From the NCBI GenBank assembly GCA_019359395.1, contig JAHHHK010000047.1, positions 1 to 44,674 on the forward strand: a DNA stretch of 44,674 bases, read 5' to 3'. Below are positions 9,223 through 29,839 of this stretch, piece by piece. Within the stretch, counting starts at the first letter, position 1. Every line of letters begins with the position of its first letter. The notes under the pieces are model-generated. The model made no database searches. It was not told where the DNA came from and worked only from the letters and a program-made list of their open reading frames with translations. The position numbers and the translations under genes are program-made. This DNA is from Komarekiella atlantica HA4396-MV6. Lineage in GTDB: Bacteria > Cyanobacteriota > Cyanobacteriia > Cyanobacteriales > Nostocaceae.

Positions 9223-11430
9223 CTAAAGTGTTAGACCCTTGACCCTTGACTCTTTATCAGTATATGCACGCACAACGTTTTTAATAATTGCCAGTCCGAC
9301 TTCTCCCGCTAGAGTCATGATTGATTCTGGATGAAATTGAACGCCAGCTATAGGAAGTGTGTGATGCTCAATTCCCATAATTATGTCATCATCAGAAATT
9401 GCCGTCACCTTGAGTTCTACCGGCAAGCGTTGGGGTATGGCAAACAATGAATGGTATCTACCGACTGTAAAGGATTCTGGTAAGTCTTTAAATAGAACGG
9501 AATTTGAATCGGTGACAACAATCCGCGAAGATTTCCCATGTTGGGGATAGTCGAGAACTCCTAACTCTCCACCAAAAGCCTCTACAATGCTTTGCAAACC
9601 TAGACAAACGCCGAAAATGGGAATTTTGCGACGAACAAGAGCGGCGATAGTTTCTGCAACCTGAAAATCACTAGGTTTACCAGGGCCAGGAGATAAGACA
9701 ACTAAGTCAGGACGTTCTGTATCGAATAGCGATTCTGAGAAGCCATGACGTAGTGTTGTGACGCTGACACCAGTTTGGCGAATGTAATTAGCTAATGTAT
9801 GCACAAATGAGTCTTCGTAGTCTATTAGTAAGACGCGTTTGCCAGGTTTAACATCTGGAATACATTCAATTGCTTTTATAAAACTACGCTCATTAGTTCT
9901 TTCACCTGTTTGCTTTGCACGGCGAATTGTTTCAAATAGTGCGGCAGCTTTAGTGATTGTTTCTTGTTCTTCTGCTTGTGGGATGGAGTCATAAAGAATA
10001 GTAGCACCGACTCGCACTTGAGCAATTGAATCTTTTAAGCGAATTGTTCGTAAGATTAATCCGGTATTTAGATTACCATTAAAGTTTAAGTAGCCAACTG
10101 CTCCGCCATACCAACGTCGAGCACTACGTTCGTACTGTTCGATAAAATCTATTGCTGCTCTTTTTGGTGCGCCGGTAACTGTAACTGCCCAAGTATGACT
10201 TAAGAATGCATCTAAAGCATCAAATTGCGATCGCAATGTACCTTCAACATGATCTACTGTATGAATCAAGTGACTATACATTTCAATTTGACGACGACCA
10301 ATAACTCGTACTGAACCTGGCTCACAAATTCGAGATTTATCGTTACGATCTACGTCGGTACACATTGTCAACTCAGCTTCATCTTTATGTGAGTTGAGTA
10401 ACTGACGAATTTGAACAGCATCATCAAGGGCATCTTGTCCCCGCGTAATAGTACCACTAATCGGACAAGTTTCTACCCGTCTACCTTCAACCCGCACGAA
10501 CATTTCTGGAGATGCTCCAATTAAATATTCTCCACCTAGATTAAAGATAAAACCATAAGGGCTAGGATTGATTTGCTTTAAGATTTCAAATAGCTTGCTA
10601 GGTTGTTCTTCACAAGCTTCAAAAAAGTTTTGACTAGGAACTACTTCAAATAAATCGCCTCGCCGGAAGTAATCAAGTGCAACTTCAACTTGTTCGGCAT
10701 ATTCGCCTATTTCATGATCTGCGGTTTGCTTTGGCACAAGACGCTTGCCTCGATAATCAACAGATTCACCTGTTCGAGGCAAATTATTAGTGCTACCATG
10801 CGCTGTTTCAAATTCATATTGCAAACGAAATGCACGTTGCAAATAGTAGTCAACAACTATGAGTTCGTCAGGTAGATAAAGCACTAAGTCCCGCTGATCT
10901 TGAGGGCGTTCTAGTTGCTGAGGAATTGGCTCAAATTGAAAAACTAAGTCATAACCAAAAGCACCATACAATCCTAGATGCTCATCTTCTTGGCTAGAGA
11001 AAGTATACAGAATTTCGCGGATAACTGTAAATACTGAAGGTTGCTGGCTACGTTCTTCTTCGGCAAAAAATTGTTGTGCGGGTTTAACAAATCCGGCGAT
11101 GTCATCCTTTTCTTGGGTGACATCCTGAAGTTGTTTTGAGCGGGATAGACGCTCTAAAAGCAATGGTAAAAGTACTCTACCGCGCTCATTTAAGGCTGTT
11201 AAAATAAAAGCATTTTCCTGTGTCGCTAATTCTAGCGGTGGATTGACAAATCCGATCGCCCACCTTTTATATCTTCCTGGATATTCGTAGCTACTCTTTA
11301 GTAAGCCACCACGTTGAGAATTTAGGTAAAACAGAATCTCTTCGATGGCAGTATCTATCTTAACTTCTTTACTGGAGCGTGAAATACGCACACCAGCAAG
11401 AGTTGTATAGGAATGAGAATTAATAATCAT
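9223..11430 (-). CDS. trpE: Anthranilate synthase, fused TrpE-TrpG
   Basis: Makes anthranilate from chorismate and glutamine. It is a 735-residue fusion. Residues about 1-520 are the chorismate-binding TrpE part, with 'NPSPYGFIFNLGGEYLIGAS', PISGTITRG, 'DEAELTMCTDVDRNDKSR' and GAPKRAAIDFIE. Residues about 530-730 are a class I glutamine amidotransferase, with LVVLSPGPGKP, the nucleophile Cys in GVCLGLQ and the His/Glu pair in QFHPES. The fusion means the ammonia-donating subunit is always co-produced. The N-terminal SSYEYPGRY segment is where tryptophan feedback acts in related fusions; whether it is feedback-sensitive cannot be told. Start ATG at 11430 after a weak GAGAG. Confidence 0.93.
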   Translation of the reverse strand: MIINSHSYTTLAGVRISRSSKEVKIDTAIEEILFYLNSQRGGLLKSSYEYPGRYKRWAIGFVNPPLELATQENAFILTALNERGRVLLPLLLERLSRSKQLQDVTQEKDDIAGFVKPAQQFFAEEERSQQPSVFTVIREILYTFSSQEDEHLGLYGAFGYDLVFQFEPIPQQLERPQDQRDLVLYLPDELIVVDYYLQRAFRLQYEFETAHGSTNNLPRTGESVDYRGKRLVPKQTADHEIGEYAEQVEVALDYFRRGDLFEVVPSQNFFEACEEQPSKLFEILKQINPSPYGFIFNLGGEYLIGASPEMFVRVEGRRVETCPISGTITRGQDALDDAVQIRQLLNSHKDEAELTMCTDVDRNDKSRICEPGSVRVIGRRQIEMYSHLIHTVDHVEGTLRSQFDALDAFLSHTWAVTVTGAPKRAAIDFIEQYERSARRWYGGAVGYLNFNGNLNTGLILRTIRLKDSIAQVRVGATILYDSIPQAEEQETITKAAALFETIRRAKQTGERTNERSFIKAIECIPDVKPGKRVLLIDYEDSFVHTLANYIRQTGVSVTTLRHGFSESLFDTERPDLVVLSPGPGKPSDFQVAETIAALVRRKIPIFGVCLGLQSIVEAFGGELGVLDYPQHGKSSRIVVTDSNSVLFKDLPESFTVGRYHSLFAIPQRLPVELKVTAISDDDIIMGIEHHTLPIAGVQFHPESIMTLAGEVGLAIIKNVVRAYTDKESRVKGLTL

Positions 11431-11867
11431 GGGTAATCTCTCTAGAATAGCTATTAGTTATTAAACTCAAGTGTCATTGATCATTGTTAGTAGTAAATTT
11501 TGAGCATAATTAAGTCTGTCTCAAGCTTTATAAATACTAGGTTTGATGTAATTAAAAGTTTTTTGCTAATTCTGATCTCAGTTTACTGAATGTGAATCAA
11601 TTATTACATGAACAATTTTTAGATTAGAAGATCAATTTATTTGTTTTTTATACATCTTTCCTGGGATAATCTCGTAGAAGGTTTTTCGTAAGTTTCTGCT
11701 TCTTCCTGGGGTTATAGAATCAGGCATGACCTAGTAATAAACATTAAAGGCAAAAGTCGATTTTCTGGAAACTAAACCACAGATACAGCAGATTTTAGGT
11801 ACAACCCTGTAGAGACGTTACATGTAACGTCTCTACACATGTAACGTCTCTACACATGTAACTGTTA
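11431..11867. other. 437-bp gap between the phosphodiesterase-like gene and trpE
   Basis: No gene is supported here. It is AT-rich, with a palindrome block (11809-11860) at the end nearer the phosphodiesterase-like gene: GTAGAGACGTTACA and its complement, then further copies of ACATGTAACGTCTCTAC. As the largest gap inside the aromatic half of the cluster, it is the likeliest place for a separate trp promoter, but I see no confident -35/-10 pair. Confidence 0.5.
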
Positions 11868-23511: not shown

Positions 23512-25395
23512 TCAAACTGCTGGAAATGAAACTTGTTTGGCTGATTTTTTTGCTTGACTTGATTTGACTCCTTGTGCTGCCAAACTCTTATTACGTCCAC
23601 CAGAGGGTGCTGGGCGATCAGGGTCAATTACTACATCGATTAGAAAAGGAACGTTTGAGGCGATCGCTTTTTCCAGTGCTTCTTCGATATCCGATTCTCT
23701 GACTACAACAATTGCTTCTGCTCCCATGCCACGAGCAATCATGGCAAAGTTGGTTGGTGGCATTGTTGCGTCTGCACCCTTTAATCCCAATACTTTCATC
23801 CCTTGATGACACATGTTGTAACGAGCATCGTTGAGTACAATCCAGATGGCGGGAATTTTGTATTTTACGGCTGTGCTGATTTCGTTATTCATCAACATCG
23901 CCCCATCACCCACAATAGCTACAGCTTTACCATTCCGCGCTTGGGCTGCACCTAAAACTCCTGTGACAGCGTGACCCATTGCTCCGACGCCTGTACTAAC
24001 TCGGTAACGATTGGCTTGGGCAAATTGCAGTAGATGAGTTGACCAAGTAAATGAGTTACCGCACTCTGCCATGACTACGGCATCGCTACCCTCAACAATG
24101 ATCTTTTGAATTGCTGACATCAATGCTTCTGGTCGCACTGGATAGTCTATATCCTGTTTTACTGCTTCACGCTCTGGACAGGGTAGCAACAGAGGTGTAG
24201 AACGAGCAAGAGCATCTGGCAACAGTTGCAACAATTCTTGTAAGTAGGTCTTGATATCAGACCGCACCCCGAAGGTTTCAACGTGGGGATAGGCGACTCC
24301 TGGCACTTCTGGGTCGATGTCTACATGTACTAAGCCTCCAGTCGGAACCATTGCTGCACTCCAGAAGGAAGTCGGTTCGCCAAGGCGGGTTCCTAATACG
24401 AGTGTACGTAGTGGAGGTTGCTGTTCCATATAAGTCAAGACGGAAGCATGACCGCCTAAACCTGTGACACCGACAAACTGGGGATGATCTTCAGGAAATA
24501 TGCCTTTACCACGAGGTGAACACATGACTGCTGCGCCGGTTTTCTCGGCGAGTTGGCGGATTTCGTCTGCGGCGTCACGCGCACCAAATCCAACCCAAAT
24601 AGCGAATGGCCCAGCAGATAATAATTCTACGGATTTAGCGATCGCTTGTTTGGGAGCAGTGATCGCAAAAGGCGAAATATCTAGTTGGGGTAAGGATATA
24701 TCCTCAACTAAACTTGTTTGCACACTGGTGGGAATGCTCAAATGGGCGACAAATCCGCCTGGCTGCGCTAAAGCTAGAGCAAGCTTGCGAAAAATTTGGG
24801 GTAGTTGAGCAGCCGATTCAATGGTGATTGCATAGTTAAACAGTGCTCCTGGGGTAAAAATTCCCCCACTCGGCAATGTGTAGGTGCTGGTTTCCTGAAT
24901 TGCCCAACGTCCACGCTGTGGTGCTGAGGTGCAAGCTGAGAGCAAAATCACTTTTGCACCTTCACCACGAGCAGCAAATAACCCGGTCAGAGCGTTGGTG
25001 ATCCCTGGCCCGGCTGTGGTAAATACTACAGTGGGGCGATCGCTTGCAAAGTAAGCCTCGGTGGCTGCAAAGGCTGCTCCTGCTTCATGGCGGAAGTTCA
25101 ACACTTCTATGCTGCTATTTGACAGCGCACCCCAAAGGCTGGCCATCGCACCCCCAGCTACGCCAAAAGCGTAACCTACTCCCAAATTTGCCAACATCTG
25201 AGCGATCGCATCGGCAACTGAGAGCTTAGGGGCTGTTTCGTTGGGTAAAAAGGGCTGAATTCCTTTGTTGTTCTCTAATTTATCCTGCTGATGTGAACCG
25301 TTTGATGCAGATTCTACATAGCTGTTTGGTGGCAATTCTTTGTATGGCTCAGTAGTGATTAGGGGAGACTTTGAACCAGTATAGTTTTTACTCAT
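23512..25395 (-). CDS. scyA: ScyA: ThDP-dependent scytonemin coupling enzyme
   Basis: Couples indole-3-pyruvate and p-hydroxyphenylpyruvate in an acyloin-type condensation, the committed step of scytonemin synthesis (known for the family). The 627-residue protein has the acetolactate synthase architecture. The N-terminal ThDP domain has Glu104 in FRHEAGAAF, the thiazolium-activating glutamate; a central domain follows; the C-terminal ThDP/Mg domain has VGDGAMLMNNEIS and VLNDARYNM. About 57 residues precede the catalytic domain, a hydrophilic extension without signal features. It is the first gene of the cluster and divergent from the kinase/regulator pair, with a 1.5-kb control region between. 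Confidence 0.95.
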   Translation of the reverse strand: MSKNYTGSKSPLITTEPYKELPPNSYVESASNGSHQQDKLENNKGIQPFLPNETAPKLSVADAIAQMLANLGVGYAFGVAGGAMASLWGALSNSSIEVLNFRHEAGAAFAATEAYFASDRPTVVFTTAGPGITNALTGLFAARGEGAKVILLSACTSAPQRGRWAIQETSTYTLPSGGIFTPGALFNYAITIESAAQLPQIFRKLALALAQPGGFVAHLSIPTSVQTSLVEDISLPQLDISPFAITAPKQAIAKSVELLSAGPFAIWVGFGARDAADEIRQLAEKTGAAVMCSPRGKGIFPEDHPQFVGVTGLGGHASVLTYMEQQPPLRTLVLGTRLGEPTSFWSAAMVPTGGLVHVDIDPEVPGVAYPHVETFGVRSDIKTYLQELLQLLPDALARSTPLLLPCPEREAVKQDIDYPVRPEALMSAIQKIIVEGSDAVVMAECGNSFTWSTHLLQFAQANRYRVSTGVGAMGHAVTGVLGAAQARNGKAVAIVGDGAMLMNNEISTAVKYKIPAIWIVLNDARYNMCHQGMKVLGLKGADATMPPTNFAMIARGMGAEAIVVVRESDIEEALEKAIASNVPFLIDVVIDPDRPAPSGGRNKSLAAQGVKSSQAKKSAKQVSFPAV

Positions 25396-26891
25396 TGCTC
25401 TTACGTAATTTTCGGGAATTTCGAGGTGGTATTTTTAATTACACTTAAGTACTTGATAATGATTAATACAAACAACTCTGTTGTTTTTTACAATTATGAT
25501 CAAGCTTGGCTGATGGTAGAGGCAGTTAATTGCTTGATGGTTAATGCTTTGGAGAATATTATTGAAAAACTTTACGATAAAAGCAAGACAATCAAGGCTG
25601 TGCTTCTAAGAGCAAGAATATAAGAGATTAAGACTTGTTAACAATGAAAAATCCTTTGATATGGATGTCAATTTTGTTGCTGTTGTTGTGACGGCTACAC
25701 TGCTCACTGAGACTGTTTAAGAGATAGTTACTTAGCGATCGCTAATGAGGTGAAAGTTCATTTACAATGAACAATCCTTTGATGAAGATGTCAATTTTGT
25801 TGCTGTTGTTGCAGTAGCGGTAATTTATACTCAGATCCTTGATAAATTAATACCTGACGATGGTTGGCCAGACATATGACCATATTTGCAATGAAAAATC
25901 TTTTGATGGAGATATCAATTTTGTTGTTGTTGTGATAAACACAATTTTTACTTAGCCGTTTTCGGAGATTGATACCTTGCGATCGCTAGGAAGCTGTGTC
26001 ACTATACTTACATTAAATATTAATTTATGAGTGTCAAGGATCAGGTATGGTTTTTATGCATCATGCTGGGTTCACGCTATCTTGATATAAATCAAATGTG
26101 TTTTGGCTTATTTTATAGCGGCTAATTTTTGTTATTTCAAAAAGTCAAACTGATAAATTTGTAATTCTAACTCACCAACACAAATTGCCTAAATTAAAAT
26201 ATGACCATAACTATAAGCTATGGCAGTCTTTGTTATTGTCATCAAATACTTCTTGATTTAGCTTTTTTTGTGCCAGTAAATACATCCGTTCTTAACATTC
26301 TCTATCTCTTTAGGGCGACATTTAAGTATTGAGCGTATATTCCTTGAGCAAAGTATTTCTTATGGCAGATGACCTAGTATATAATTTTATAGTTAGATCC
26401 CTGCAATAGTAATTTAATGAATATAAACTTTTGAAAAAAGTTGCCTATTTAAAACATCAATAATTATTGGGCAAGTACATCTTAAGTAAACCATTAAGTA
26501 ACTATATACCAAAGGTAATTGATGTAGATACAGTTCAATTTTGAATATCTCACTTACCTATAAATTAAACGTTTCACAGCCTGAATCTGAGCCAGATTTT
26601 AGACTAATCTTATTGATTTGTCTGGAATTTTTCTCTAACTGTAATAAATTATTTAAATCAAGAACAGATTCCAATTGTTTTAATCTTTTGAGGAAATTTG
26701 GGTCAAATTATACATTTTTTTATGTATAATAAGATTTGTTAACCTAATTAGTAAAATATTTATGGGATATGCTAGTAAGTCTTGTTTTTTAGCAATCTAA
26801 CGTACATTAAGGGTTTTAGATAAGTTGTGATTATAAGTTCATTCATGGCTATGGTGTGGACTTTATTATAAGGACTGAGTAGGGATGGAAT
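25396..26891. promoter_or_regulatory. Divergent control region between scyA and the scytonemin kinase gene
   Basis: About 1.5 kb without a convincing gene, AT-rich, and the only long space between the leftward scy operon and the rightward regulator genes. It must hold promoters for both sides. Three related repeats (25641-25692, 25764-25817, 25888-25930) lie 250-540 bp from the scyA start. The remaining ~950 bp shows no repeat or hairpin I can define. An AraC-type regulator needs binding sites, and this is the natural place for them (inference). Confidence 0.6.
25641..25930 (+). repeat. Three diverged direct repeats spaced ~123 bp upstream of scyA
   Basis: The core begins CAATGAAAAATCCTTTGAT and continues as TCAATTTTGTTGCTGTTGTT. 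It occurs with its ATG at 25644, 25767 and 25891. Spacings are 123 and 124 bp. Weaker similarity extends through the spacers, for example 'gagat..tac.ttagcgatcgcta' after copies 1 and 3. Each core also reads as a tiny ORF of 14-16 residues (like MKNPL..MSILLLLL). See the findings for the two readings. Confidence 0.8.
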
Positions 26892-28847
26892 ATGAATTTT
26901 AACGACTATACGTTAGCTCGATCCAACTCTCAATCGGCACTACAGCCAGAAGTAGAGTTGAAGTTTGCTCATTTATTAATAAATCAAGCTGTAGATGCTG
27001 CTTTTTGTGTAGGAGAAAACGCGCAGTTTGTTTACGTCAACGATGCCGCTTGCCGGATAACTGAGTATTCCCGTGAGGAATTACTTTCCATGACGCTGCA
27101 TGATATAGATGTAGATTTTTCTTTGCACAACTGGTCACAGAGCAAATCACAGAATTACCTTACTTTTAAGTCTCGCTATCGCAAAAAAGGAGGTGGGATA
27201 TTCTTGGTGGAAATATCCATGACACGTATAGAACACCAAGGTAAAGAGTTGAGCTGTGTTTTCGCTCGTGACAAAAGTGGTGAAGTAGTAGAAATGAGTA
27301 TGCAAAGATGGGTCGATGAATTAAGAGATTCTAAAAGCCATTTGCAACAGGAAGTTTCTAAACTCAAGGCTAAAGAAGGAGAGCTTGAAACGTCTCTATC
27401 TATACTTCGTTCTACTCTTGAATCTACTGCCAACGCTATTGTTGCGGTTAACTTTGAGGGAGATATTCTGAGCTTTAATCAGAGATTTGTGGATATGTGG
27501 CAGATTCCAGAGTCTTTGATGTTATCCAAAAAATGTCCTCGATGTAAAGCCTTTTTTGAGAGCCAACTTAAAGACCCAGAAACCTTTAGTCGGATGATTT
27601 GGGAAGTTTCCAGCCAGTCTGACTTCGAGAGCTACGACATTCTGGAGTTGAAAGATGGCAGAGTCTTTGCACACTACTCTAAGCCTCAATGGCTTGATGA
27701 AAAAATTATTGGTAGAGTCTGGAGCATTTGGGATATTACTGAATCCAGACAGACAGAGGAAGCATTACGGCTGAACGCTGCTAGATTTCAAACTTTGGCA
27801 GAAACGACAGATGCCGGCACTTTTCTAATTCAAGGTATGCGGCTTTGCTATGTAAATCCGGCTGTGGAGCTATTAACTGGCTACACAAGAAAGGAACTAC
27901 TCAATGGCTTTGATCTTCGCCGATTAATCAAAAGTAAAAAACGCAGACACGTACGAAATCAGGGTGAAGCGACTAACTTTGAATATCAAGAAATCAATAT
28001 TCTGACAAAAAACGGCACGGAGCGCTGGCTAGCTTGCACAGTTGCAAAACTAGATGGAGTGCTGGATTTTGGGGGAAAATCGGTTGAACTGATTGCAGGG
28101 ATTGATATTACCGATTACAAATATGCAGAATCAGAACTTAACCAGGCTTTAGAACAAGCAAAACAACTTAGCGAACTAAGAGCACGCTTTCTTTCTATGG
28201 TCTGCCATCAATTTCGCACCCCACTGAATACTGTTTCATTTTCTAATAGCTTACTAAAGCGACACATGGATGAATGGACACAGGAGGAGATACAACCATT
28301 ATTTGATCACATTCAAACAGCTGTTGAACAGTTAAGCCAAATGTTGGATGATATTCTGTTTTTCGCGAAAGCAGAAGCAGCAAAAATAAACTTCCAGCCA
28401 AAACCAGTCGAGATAGTTCAATTCTGCAATGATTTAGTGGCACAAATGCAGATGAACAGTCGCCATAACCCAATCAGCTTTGTTAGTCAAGTAGACTGTT
28501 TAACAGCCTATGTAGATAAAAAACTATTAGAGTCTATTCTCAATAACTTGCTTGACAATGCAATCAAATATTCGCAATCCGGCACTGTGATTAATTTAAA
28601 ACTTTCTTTTGAAAATGGGAAAGTAATTTTTCAGGTCAAAGACAGCGGTATTGGTATTTCATTTGCAGACCAACAACAACTATTTGAGCCATTTTATCGG
28701 GGTAGCAATATCGATCATATACCTGGTACTGGACTAGGACTATCGATTGTCAAAACCCTTGTGGACTTACATGGCGGTCAAATTGCTATGGAAAGCGAAG
28801 TTGGTGTAGGCACTACTTTTACTGTCATGCTGCCACTATTAAAATAA
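26892..28847 (+). CDS. Soluble multi-PAS sensor histidine kinase of the scytonemin locus
   Basis: A 651-residue hybrid-free kinase that would phosphorylate the adjacent response regulator. It has three PAS-like domains (about residues 22-150, 170-290 and 295-420), then HisKA with phospho-acceptor His439 in MVCHQFRTPLN. The HATPase domain shows NLLDNAIKYS (N box), DSGIGIS (G1), FEPFYRG (F) and GTGLGLSIVK (G2). There is no transmembrane segment, so the signal is cytoplasmic. The second PAS domain contains CPRCK, a CxxC pair that may bind metal or sense redox. The order matches the kinase/regulator pair upstream of scyA in N. punctiforme. An AGGGATGG precedes the ATG. Confidence 0.92.
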   Translation: MNFNDYTLARSNSQSALQPEVELKFAHLLINQAVDAAFCVGENAQFVYVNDAACRITEYSREELLSMTLHDIDVDFSLHNWSQSKSQNYLTFKSRYRKKGGGIFLVEISMTRIEHQGKELSCVFARDKSGEVVEMSMQRWVDELRDSKSHLQQEVSKLKAKEGELETSLSILRSTLESTANAIVAVNFEGDILSFNQRFVDMWQIPESLMLSKKCPRCKAFFESQLKDPETFSRMIWEVSSQSDFESYDILELKDGRVFAHYSKPQWLDEKIIGRVWSIWDITESRQTEEALRLNAARFQTLAETTDAGTFLIQGMRLCYVNPAVELLTGYTRKELLNGFDLRRLIKSKKRRHVRNQGEATNFEYQEINILTKNGTERWLACTVAKLDGVLDFGGKSVELIAGIDITDYKYAESELNQALEQAKQLSELRARFLSMVCHQFRTPLNTVSFSNSLLKRHMDEWTQEEIQPLFDHIQTAVEQLSQMLDDILFFAKAEAAKINFQPKPVEIVQFCNDLVAQMQMNSRHNPISFVSQVDCLTAYVDKKLLESILNNLLDNAIKYSQSGTVINLKLSFENGKVIFQVKDSGIGISFADQQQLFEPFYRGSNIDHIPGTGLGLSIVKTLVDLHGGQIAMESEVGVGTTFTVMLPLLK

Positions 28848-29005: not shown

Positions 29006-29839
29006 ATGATGTACGAATCGTCAAAAAAAATTCTTGTAATTGAAGATGATACCGTTACCCGCAATCTTTTCTTAAAGGGTCTTGAGGCTGAAGGTTTTCA
29101 TCCGATAGGCGCTCAAAACGGTCTTGTTGGCATCCAGCAGGCACAAGAGCATTTACCCGACCTAGTGATTTGCGATATTATGATGCCCGATATGGATGGT
29201 TACAGCGTTCTAGCTACGCTGCGCGGAGATCCTGTGACAGCAATCATCCCCTTTATTTTTCTTACTGGCAGCGACACTAGAGCAGAGGTTCGCAAAGCTA
29301 TGGAGTTAGGGGCAGATGATTATCTTACCAAACCTTCTACACTAGACGAATTGCTCAGGGCGATCGCCACCCGCCTACAAAAGCAAGCTACTCTCCAATA
29401 CTGGTGGACTACTCAATTTCTGAATACTCCAAAGCCAACAGCTGCACCTCAAACTTTAGATATTGCTACTCCCGACTCAATTTTCCCCTGCGATCCTCAA
29501 TTAAAAGAAGTTTTCGATTTCATCGAAGCTAATTATCACCAAGGAATCACTTTGTGTGATGTGGCTGAGGCAGTTGGTTACTCATCTGCTTACTTAACTA
29601 ACCGAGTCGCAAGGCAGACAGGAGAAACTGTAAACAGCTGGATTGTTAAACGTCGCATGGCAGGTGCTCGTTTCTTACTCCAAAGCAACAACCAGACAAT
29701 CGAGCAAATTGCCAAAGCATTAGGCTATCAAAATGTGTGTCATTTCTCCCGTCAGTTTCGCCAACATCACGGTTTACCTCCCCACGCTTGGCGCAAAGAG
29801 CATCAGGTTGTATTGCAACAAGAGGCAACTCTCTGCTAG
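29006..29839 (+). CDS. Response regulator with AraC-type DNA-binding domain
   Basis: A 277-residue regulator. The receiver domain (1-125) has the acidic pair in VIEDD, phospho-acceptor Asp57 in VICDIMMPDMDG, and a conserved Lys in YLTKPS. A linker follows, then an AraC/XylS domain (about 170-270) with two helix-turn-helices: 'ITLCDVAEAVGYSSAYLTN' and 'QTIEQIAKALGYQNVCHFS', ending HHGLPPHAWRK. It is 158 bp after the kinase and most likely activates the divergent scy operon under UV or oxidative stress (inference from locus and known N. punctiforme biology). AraC proteins often bind direct repeats. Confidence 0.92.
   Translation: MMYESSKKILVIEDDTVTRNLFLKGLEAEGFHPIGAQNGLVGIQQAQEHLPDLVICDIMMPDMDGYSVLATLRGDPVTAIIPFIFLTGSDTRAEVRKAMELGADDYLTKPSTLDELLRAIATRLQKQATLQYWWTTQFLNTPKPTAAPQTLDIATPDSIFPCDPQLKEVFDFIEANYHQGITLCDVAEAVGYSSAYLTNRVARQTGETVNSWIVKRRMAGARFLLQSNNQTIEQIAKALGYQNVCHFSRQFRQHHGLPPHAWRKEHQVVLQQEATLC

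Follow-up and report, generated by a model that had tools for sequence, protein, structure and literature searches.

A conserved element lies in three copies upstream of scyA in Komarekiella atlantica HA4396-MV6 and recurs, at a similar place and on the same strand, upstream of scyA in a wide range of cyanobacteria. It is highly likely that this element is an operator. Judging from the sequence comparisons described below, the three repeats probably serve as operators of the cluster's own REC-AraC response regulator, with one copy at the promoter and the other two further upstream. Scytonemin, a UV-A sunscreen, is widespread among cyanobacteria, and the available text of a 2025 review describes the molecular basis of its regulation as unexplored and the role of the upstream two-component regulator as unclear (PMC12157317). 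The regulator to which the element is tied is needed for scytonemin and so far had no known DNA target. The element offers a concrete DNA target for this question, together with a predicted scyA promoter, and a means to list further genes that may make or deposit the pigment.

The repeat array and its conservation upstream of scyA

The window, i.e., the whole stretch of 44,674 nucleotides that was analysed, carries the array in a 1.5-kb intergenic stretch between scyA and a histidine kinase gene (Table 1). The initial annotation had described three evenly spaced cores in the same orientation, each with an ATG micro-ORF of 14–16 residues, close to scyA and a REC-AraC gene. This description holds: the three 51-nt copies start 123 and 124 nt apart, the ORFs comprise 15, 16, and 14 residues, and the two genes are what they were taken to be, scyA being identified by NF035923 above its cut-off. 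The two other copies are 90% and 80% identical to copy 1. In a global alignment of the three copies, the cores are pairwise 82–90% identical and the spacers of about 72 nt that follow them 52–62% identical. Relatedness to spacers 1 and 2 can still be recognised for spacer 3 (scores reached by 0 and 1 of 200 shuffles, respectively), and none was detectable between spacers 1 and 2 (score reached by 121 of 200 shuffles). The array would fit a tandem duplication of a unit of about 124 bp followed by selection on the cores. Because two of the three spacer pairs are still related, the equal spacing may partly be a legacy of this duplication. No place in the rest of the genome scores like the three copies, and the weaker relatives found there are a pair 119 bp apart (C22, 34.7 and 18 bits) and a single match (C56, 26.5 bits).

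Table 1. Coordinates of the array, the predicted promoter, and the associated genes in the window.
Feature	Position	Strand	Details
Degenerate match	11608..11648	+	9.6 bits; 178 bp before trpE-like gene 9223-11430 (-)
scyA, predicted target	23512..25395	-	NF035923, 1140.7 bits (cut-off 1020)
Predicted scyA promoter	25615..25644	-	-35 TTGTTA 25644-25639; -10 TATATT or TATTCT
Copy 1, scyA-proximal predicted activator site	25638..25688	+	47.4 bits; 238 bp from scyA start
Copy 2, upstream site	25761..25811	+	51.4 bits
Copy 3, most distal site	25885..25935	+	54 bits
PAS-containing histidine kinase, predicted sensor	26892..28847	+	
REC-AraC response regulator, predicted to bind the element	29006..29839	+	

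The comparison of this spacer among relatives, which the initial annotation had proposed, was made with a profile seeded with the three window copies. A collection that covers 84,980 species genomes gave 283 ScyA relatives, of which we took the loci of the 80 best; the profile was iterated on 109 loci, with 29 others added to these 80. In the 750 bp upstream of scyA, 141 matches score 18 bits or more, and 78 of these 80 best loci have at least one such match; the scores are flattering, since these very loci served to iterate the profile, whereas position and strand were not fitted by the iteration. All 141 matches are on the strand opposite to scyA. Of the 80 loci, two gave no match: one in which 2 bases upstream are present (L071) and one with a ScyA-like paralogue (L075). 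None of 800 dinucleotide-shuffled upstream sequences gave a match of at least 12 bits, and beyond the scyA upstream regions there was one further match in 893,410 bases. The latter is a second strong element in a Trichocoleus locus (L063, 3310–3354 (+), 36.2 bits), in reverse orientation and adjoining the end of the REC-AraC gene. The loci span Nostoc and its kin, Scytonema, Brasilonema, Calothrix, Rivularia, Aliterella, Chlorogloea, Chroococcus, and Trichocoleus.

The number of copies was counted in the 75 loci, window included, that have at least 700 bp upstream: one copy is present in 39, two in 5, three in 30, and none in 1. The proximal copy lies 203–260 bp from the scyA start, with the exception of eight loci at 292–436 bp, and the gaps between copies in relatives are 116–146, 213–263, and once 357 bp. 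A search for copy remnants at the position around -360, vacant in 23 loci, found none. The near-constant spacing, from which co-operative binding of a regulator had been proposed, stands for the window, but it varies across relatives, many of which have a single copy, and this argument is weaker than it had been put. We also analysed helical phasing, on 68 gaps in related loci that separate copies scoring 8 bits or more; five gaps of 394–1342 bp (L051, L054, L063, L064, L086) were omitted. At 10.5 bp, R is 0.68; when each of the 25 distinct gap values is counted once, this is not significant, since a jitter control reaches it in 0.08 of the trials. Because of this control, and because the best period is at the edge of the scanned range, we do not claim phasing.

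Anatomy of the element and the predicted scyA promoter

The alignment of 145 copies, 79 proximal (counting the opposite-strand match of L063) and 66 distal, has the consensus TTTGCAATGAAAAATCTTTTGATnnGGnTGTCAATTCTTTnGCTTTT (41-row alignment A1). The profile matches itself best at an offset of 21 bp (columns 17–28 against columns 38–49), and column shuffles were as good in 0 of 300 cases with windows of 10 and 12 columns and in 1 of 300 with 8 columns. The core holds a 21-bp direct repeat, i.e., two half-sites about two helical turns apart.

Copy 1, read on the minus strand, overlaps the predicted -35 of scyA. In the scyA sense, a TAnnnT is conserved after the proximal copies (judged on an alignment of 59 of 71 sequences) and not after the distal ones. 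Two -10 options follow the -35 in the window: TATATT (25622–25617) with a spacer of 16, and TATTCT (25620–25615), in the conserved register, with a spacer of 18. The -35 is poor here, and a general promoter scan of the region gave 10 promoters versus 7.7 expected, which is not above chance. If the TTGCA of the element is taken as the -35, the half-sites would centre near -47 and -68 of the predicted promoter. The layout, with the proximal copy on the predicted -35 and upstream of TAnnnT, resembles that of an AraC-type activator site. Right after the predicted -10, the window (25590–25614, minus strand) and its relatives have about 20 conserved bases, approximately TGGTTnC.AGAAGCAC in the scyA sense, and downstream of these comes a less conserved leader of about 200 nt.

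Association with scytonemin genomes and REC-AraC genes

The distribution of the element was compared with that of ScyC using a sequence-only model (R1), built from 41 scyA copies and run on 208 genomes of the family. ScyC was searched with NF035924 in 208 genomes drawn in the same way, and both draws were treated as one set. All 114 ScyC-positive genomes fall among the 166 that have an element match. At E ≤ 1e-8, the element occurs in 103 of the 114 ScyC-positive versus 0 of the 94 ScyC-negative genomes (Fisher test 2.9e-47, ancestry ignored), and at 1e-7 in 108 versus 6. Five of these six (G196, G175, G195, G112, G103) have the hetP-like/trpC site described below. The sixth, G098, has the element, the kinase, and the regulator beside a 90-residue ScyA remnant (L224) and seems to hold a scytonemin cluster in decay. 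Six ScyC-positive genomes are without a match at 1e-7. A weaker match lies about 3.6 kb from ScyC in G163, G018, G202, and G199, with scyA beside it in the three that were fetched, and there is no element match near ScyC in G040 and G035.

Many weaker sites occur in 20 chosen genomes, for which we fetched 42 regions and examined, on the opposite strand, the gene downstream of the site. Ten listed secondary sites were left out, five of them at 13–15 kb from scyA, the distance at which one would expect the trpE-like gene. The initial annotation had weighed a scattering of the repeat elsewhere in the genome against its own reading; weaker copies do exist, but they stand mostly before a few recurring classes of genes. 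These are genes for Gly-rich repeat proteins (16 of the 42 regions, eight with two copies about 114–122 bp apart), hetP-like/trpC genes (7), trpE-like genes (6; in L185 there is a Gly-rich site as well), genes for secreted proteins of about 215 residues (5), scyA itself (2), and ScyE-family genes (1, with two sites), the Gly-rich and secreted classes being defined by eye and tblastn. Six regions have no gene class (L160, L184, L188, L189, L190, L194). Within the genome of the window, C22 lies before a Gly-rich protein gene and C56 before a hetP-like gene (NF037966) and trpC. The degenerate match before the trpE-like gene (Table 1) has stronger counterparts at the same place in six relatives (12.4–25.2 bits).

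Some of these proteins form families of their own. One, of unknown function, consists of Gly/Asn/Pro/Phe repeats and has the element about 200–245 bp before the start, often twice (L153, 6224–6709; L155, L158, L159, L169, L172, L174, L176, and others); in L157, L163, and L164 it is 22–28 kb from scyA. The family of about 215 residues has a signal-peptide-like start and the element upstream (L156, L161, L162, L166, L175), and the L156 protein has no NCBIfam match. The matches in L188, L189, and L190 are partial (model positions 23–51), near-identical 74-residue ORFs adjoin them in two of these three genomes, and they are perhaps repeated or mobile sequence.

The REC-AraC gene is found by tblastn in 70 of the 71 ScyA loci with at least 4.4 kb upstream (some genes being cut off by the locus end) and the kinase in 67. 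The sole locus without the regulator gene, L075, is also without the element. This linkage at scyA is confounded with the cluster itself. The genome of the window has four full-length REC-AraC genes. The element is near that of the window and near one gene that is 71–73% identical (C56), and there is no good element near the two 56%-identical genes of this genome. A weak match beside a third REC-AraC gene (C48) was rejected because it overlaps the 3' end of that gene.

The hetP-like/trpC sites number 15 in all, eight of them from 13 further genomes, and were matched with a model built from scyA copies only; of all sites, they say the most about the identity of the binder. In this arrangement, the hetP-like gene and trpC diverge from a paralogous REC-AraC gene, and a variant of the element lies in the space between (L154, 6036–10265; similarly L177, L180, L181, L182, L186, L191, L219–L223, and L225–L227). 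A REC-AraC homologue, 56–74% identical to that of the window, lies within 3.6 kb in all 15 loci, and a kinase homologue is present in seven. The search for ScyC at E ≤ 1e-5 found none in 8 of the 15 genomes (G112, G175, G103, G196, G195, G114, G176, G098); ScyC is present in G040 and G101. A tree of 69 regulators places the 14 hetP-like/trpC ones that are long enough in one group (support 91/96) among the scyA-linked ones, and the site and its regulator may therefore have been duplicated together. Such a joint duplication would fit, without proving it, that regulators of the REC-AraC type read the element.

These comparisons make it very probable that the REC-AraC protein binds the element. 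A true operator bound by another DNA-binding protein, e.g., a global light or redox regulator, with an indirect part for REC-AraC, is an unlikely alternative that nevertheless has some points in its favour: the element is found at many places without an adjoining REC-AraC gene, and two of the four REC-AraC genes of the window's genome lack it. Yet the strong matches are confined to ScyC-positive genomes, every locus of the recurring second place, including those of the eight ScyC-negative genomes, has a REC-AraC homologue nearby, and the 21-bp direct repeat is AraC-like, given the known geometry of AraC sites.

With REC-AraC as the binder, we infer that the PAS histidine kinase would activate the neighbouring response regulator by phosphorylation, and that a dimer of the latter would bind each core at the two half-sites. 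The regulator at the proximal copy would then sit against the scyA -35 and aid RNA polymerase (class II activation), and the two upstream copies would add occupancy. A wider, hitherto undescribed sunscreen regulon is a tentative extension, to which we give less than even credence: the element might drive scyA, the trpE-like gene of the cluster, and the genes of Gly-rich repeat and small secreted proteins that help deposit scytonemin in the sheath, and a sister REC-AraC might use the same DNA code at hetP-like/trpC and so connect the supply of tryptophan, or cell differentiation, with the making of the sunscreen.

Other readings and comparison with known systems

The array could also make tandem small RNAs, like NsiR1 of Anabaena, and its tandem units within a long intergenic stretch would suit this. 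We consider it very unlikely: no conserved -10 follows the distal copies in the scyA sense, 39 of the 75 loci carry just one copy, and Rfam has no match at the gathering score in 25300–26950, where four far-below-threshold matches are to unrelated families.

We rejected the reading of the copies as hydrophobic micro-peptides, either a leader peptide or type I toxins resembling Ibs; its probability is minimal. The ORFs of the window also occur in close relatives and the ATG is retained in 83 of the 145 copies, but the triplet is ATC in 34 and ATA in 28, and when the window and its four closest loci are set aside, ATG is kept in 68 of 130. The mean information at codon positions 1, 2, and 3 is 1.19, 1.36, and 1.16 bits in copies with ATG and 1.32, 1.59, and 1.51 bits in those without, and there is thus no coding pattern. 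The micro-ORFs are on the strand opposite to scyA and cannot therefore be its leader. The initial annotation had preferred a DNA or RNA element over peptides, and the conservation of the element, its geometry, and the link with the regulator speak for DNA. Equally improbable is a dispersed repeat family devoid of regulatory role: related copies do lie at several places in many genomes, but orientation and distance before scyA are fixed, the target gene classes recur, and the cores are conserved while the spacers diverged. An RpaB site, whose motif is HLR1, was weighed by eye only and not adopted.

Among known systems, the predicted operator of REC-AraC is closest to the sites of AraC-family activators. 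In araI1-I2, direct-repeat half-sites are 21 bp apart and the inner part overlaps the -35. The element shares the 21-bp direct repeat, and a gene for a regulator with an AraC-type HTH is next door; its proximal copy would likewise overlap the -35 if the predicted promoter is the one used. It differs in its core sequence, which is apparently unrelated, and in having up to two further copies upstream; the regulator of the window has a receiver domain instead of the sugar-binding domain of AraC. In kind, the element is nothing unusual: it would be a transcription-factor operator, deeply conserved and apparently previously undescribed. Among the papers listed in searches of the open literature on scytonemin, none describes a scyA operator in its title or the beginning of its abstract, and the words motif, promoter, and consensus are absent from the available text of the 2009 comparative-genomics paper (PMC2726228).

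Npun_F1277/F1278 is the scytonemin two-component system according to the accessible parts of three papers (PMC2726228, PMC7997468, PMC8879130). These parts give the same place in the cluster and the same domain types as in the window, whose gene is taken as the counterpart by position and family and not by direct comparison. When Npun_F1278 is lost, scytonemin is no longer made and the scyA transcript drops strongly (PMC7997468). The available text of this paper and of the 2025 review calls the interaction of the regulator with DNA unresolved (PMC7997468, PMC12157317), and no DNA target is given in the accessible parts of the three papers. A further parallel, from the available portions of the reports, is OrrA of Nostoc flagelliforme, a regulator of the mycosporine-like amino acid sunscreens (PMC13131328, PMC12157317). 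There, a response regulator binds the promoter of a sunscreen cluster, as is predicted here; as described in those portions, OrrA is a LuxR-family factor and not an AraC-type one, and it acts on a different cluster.
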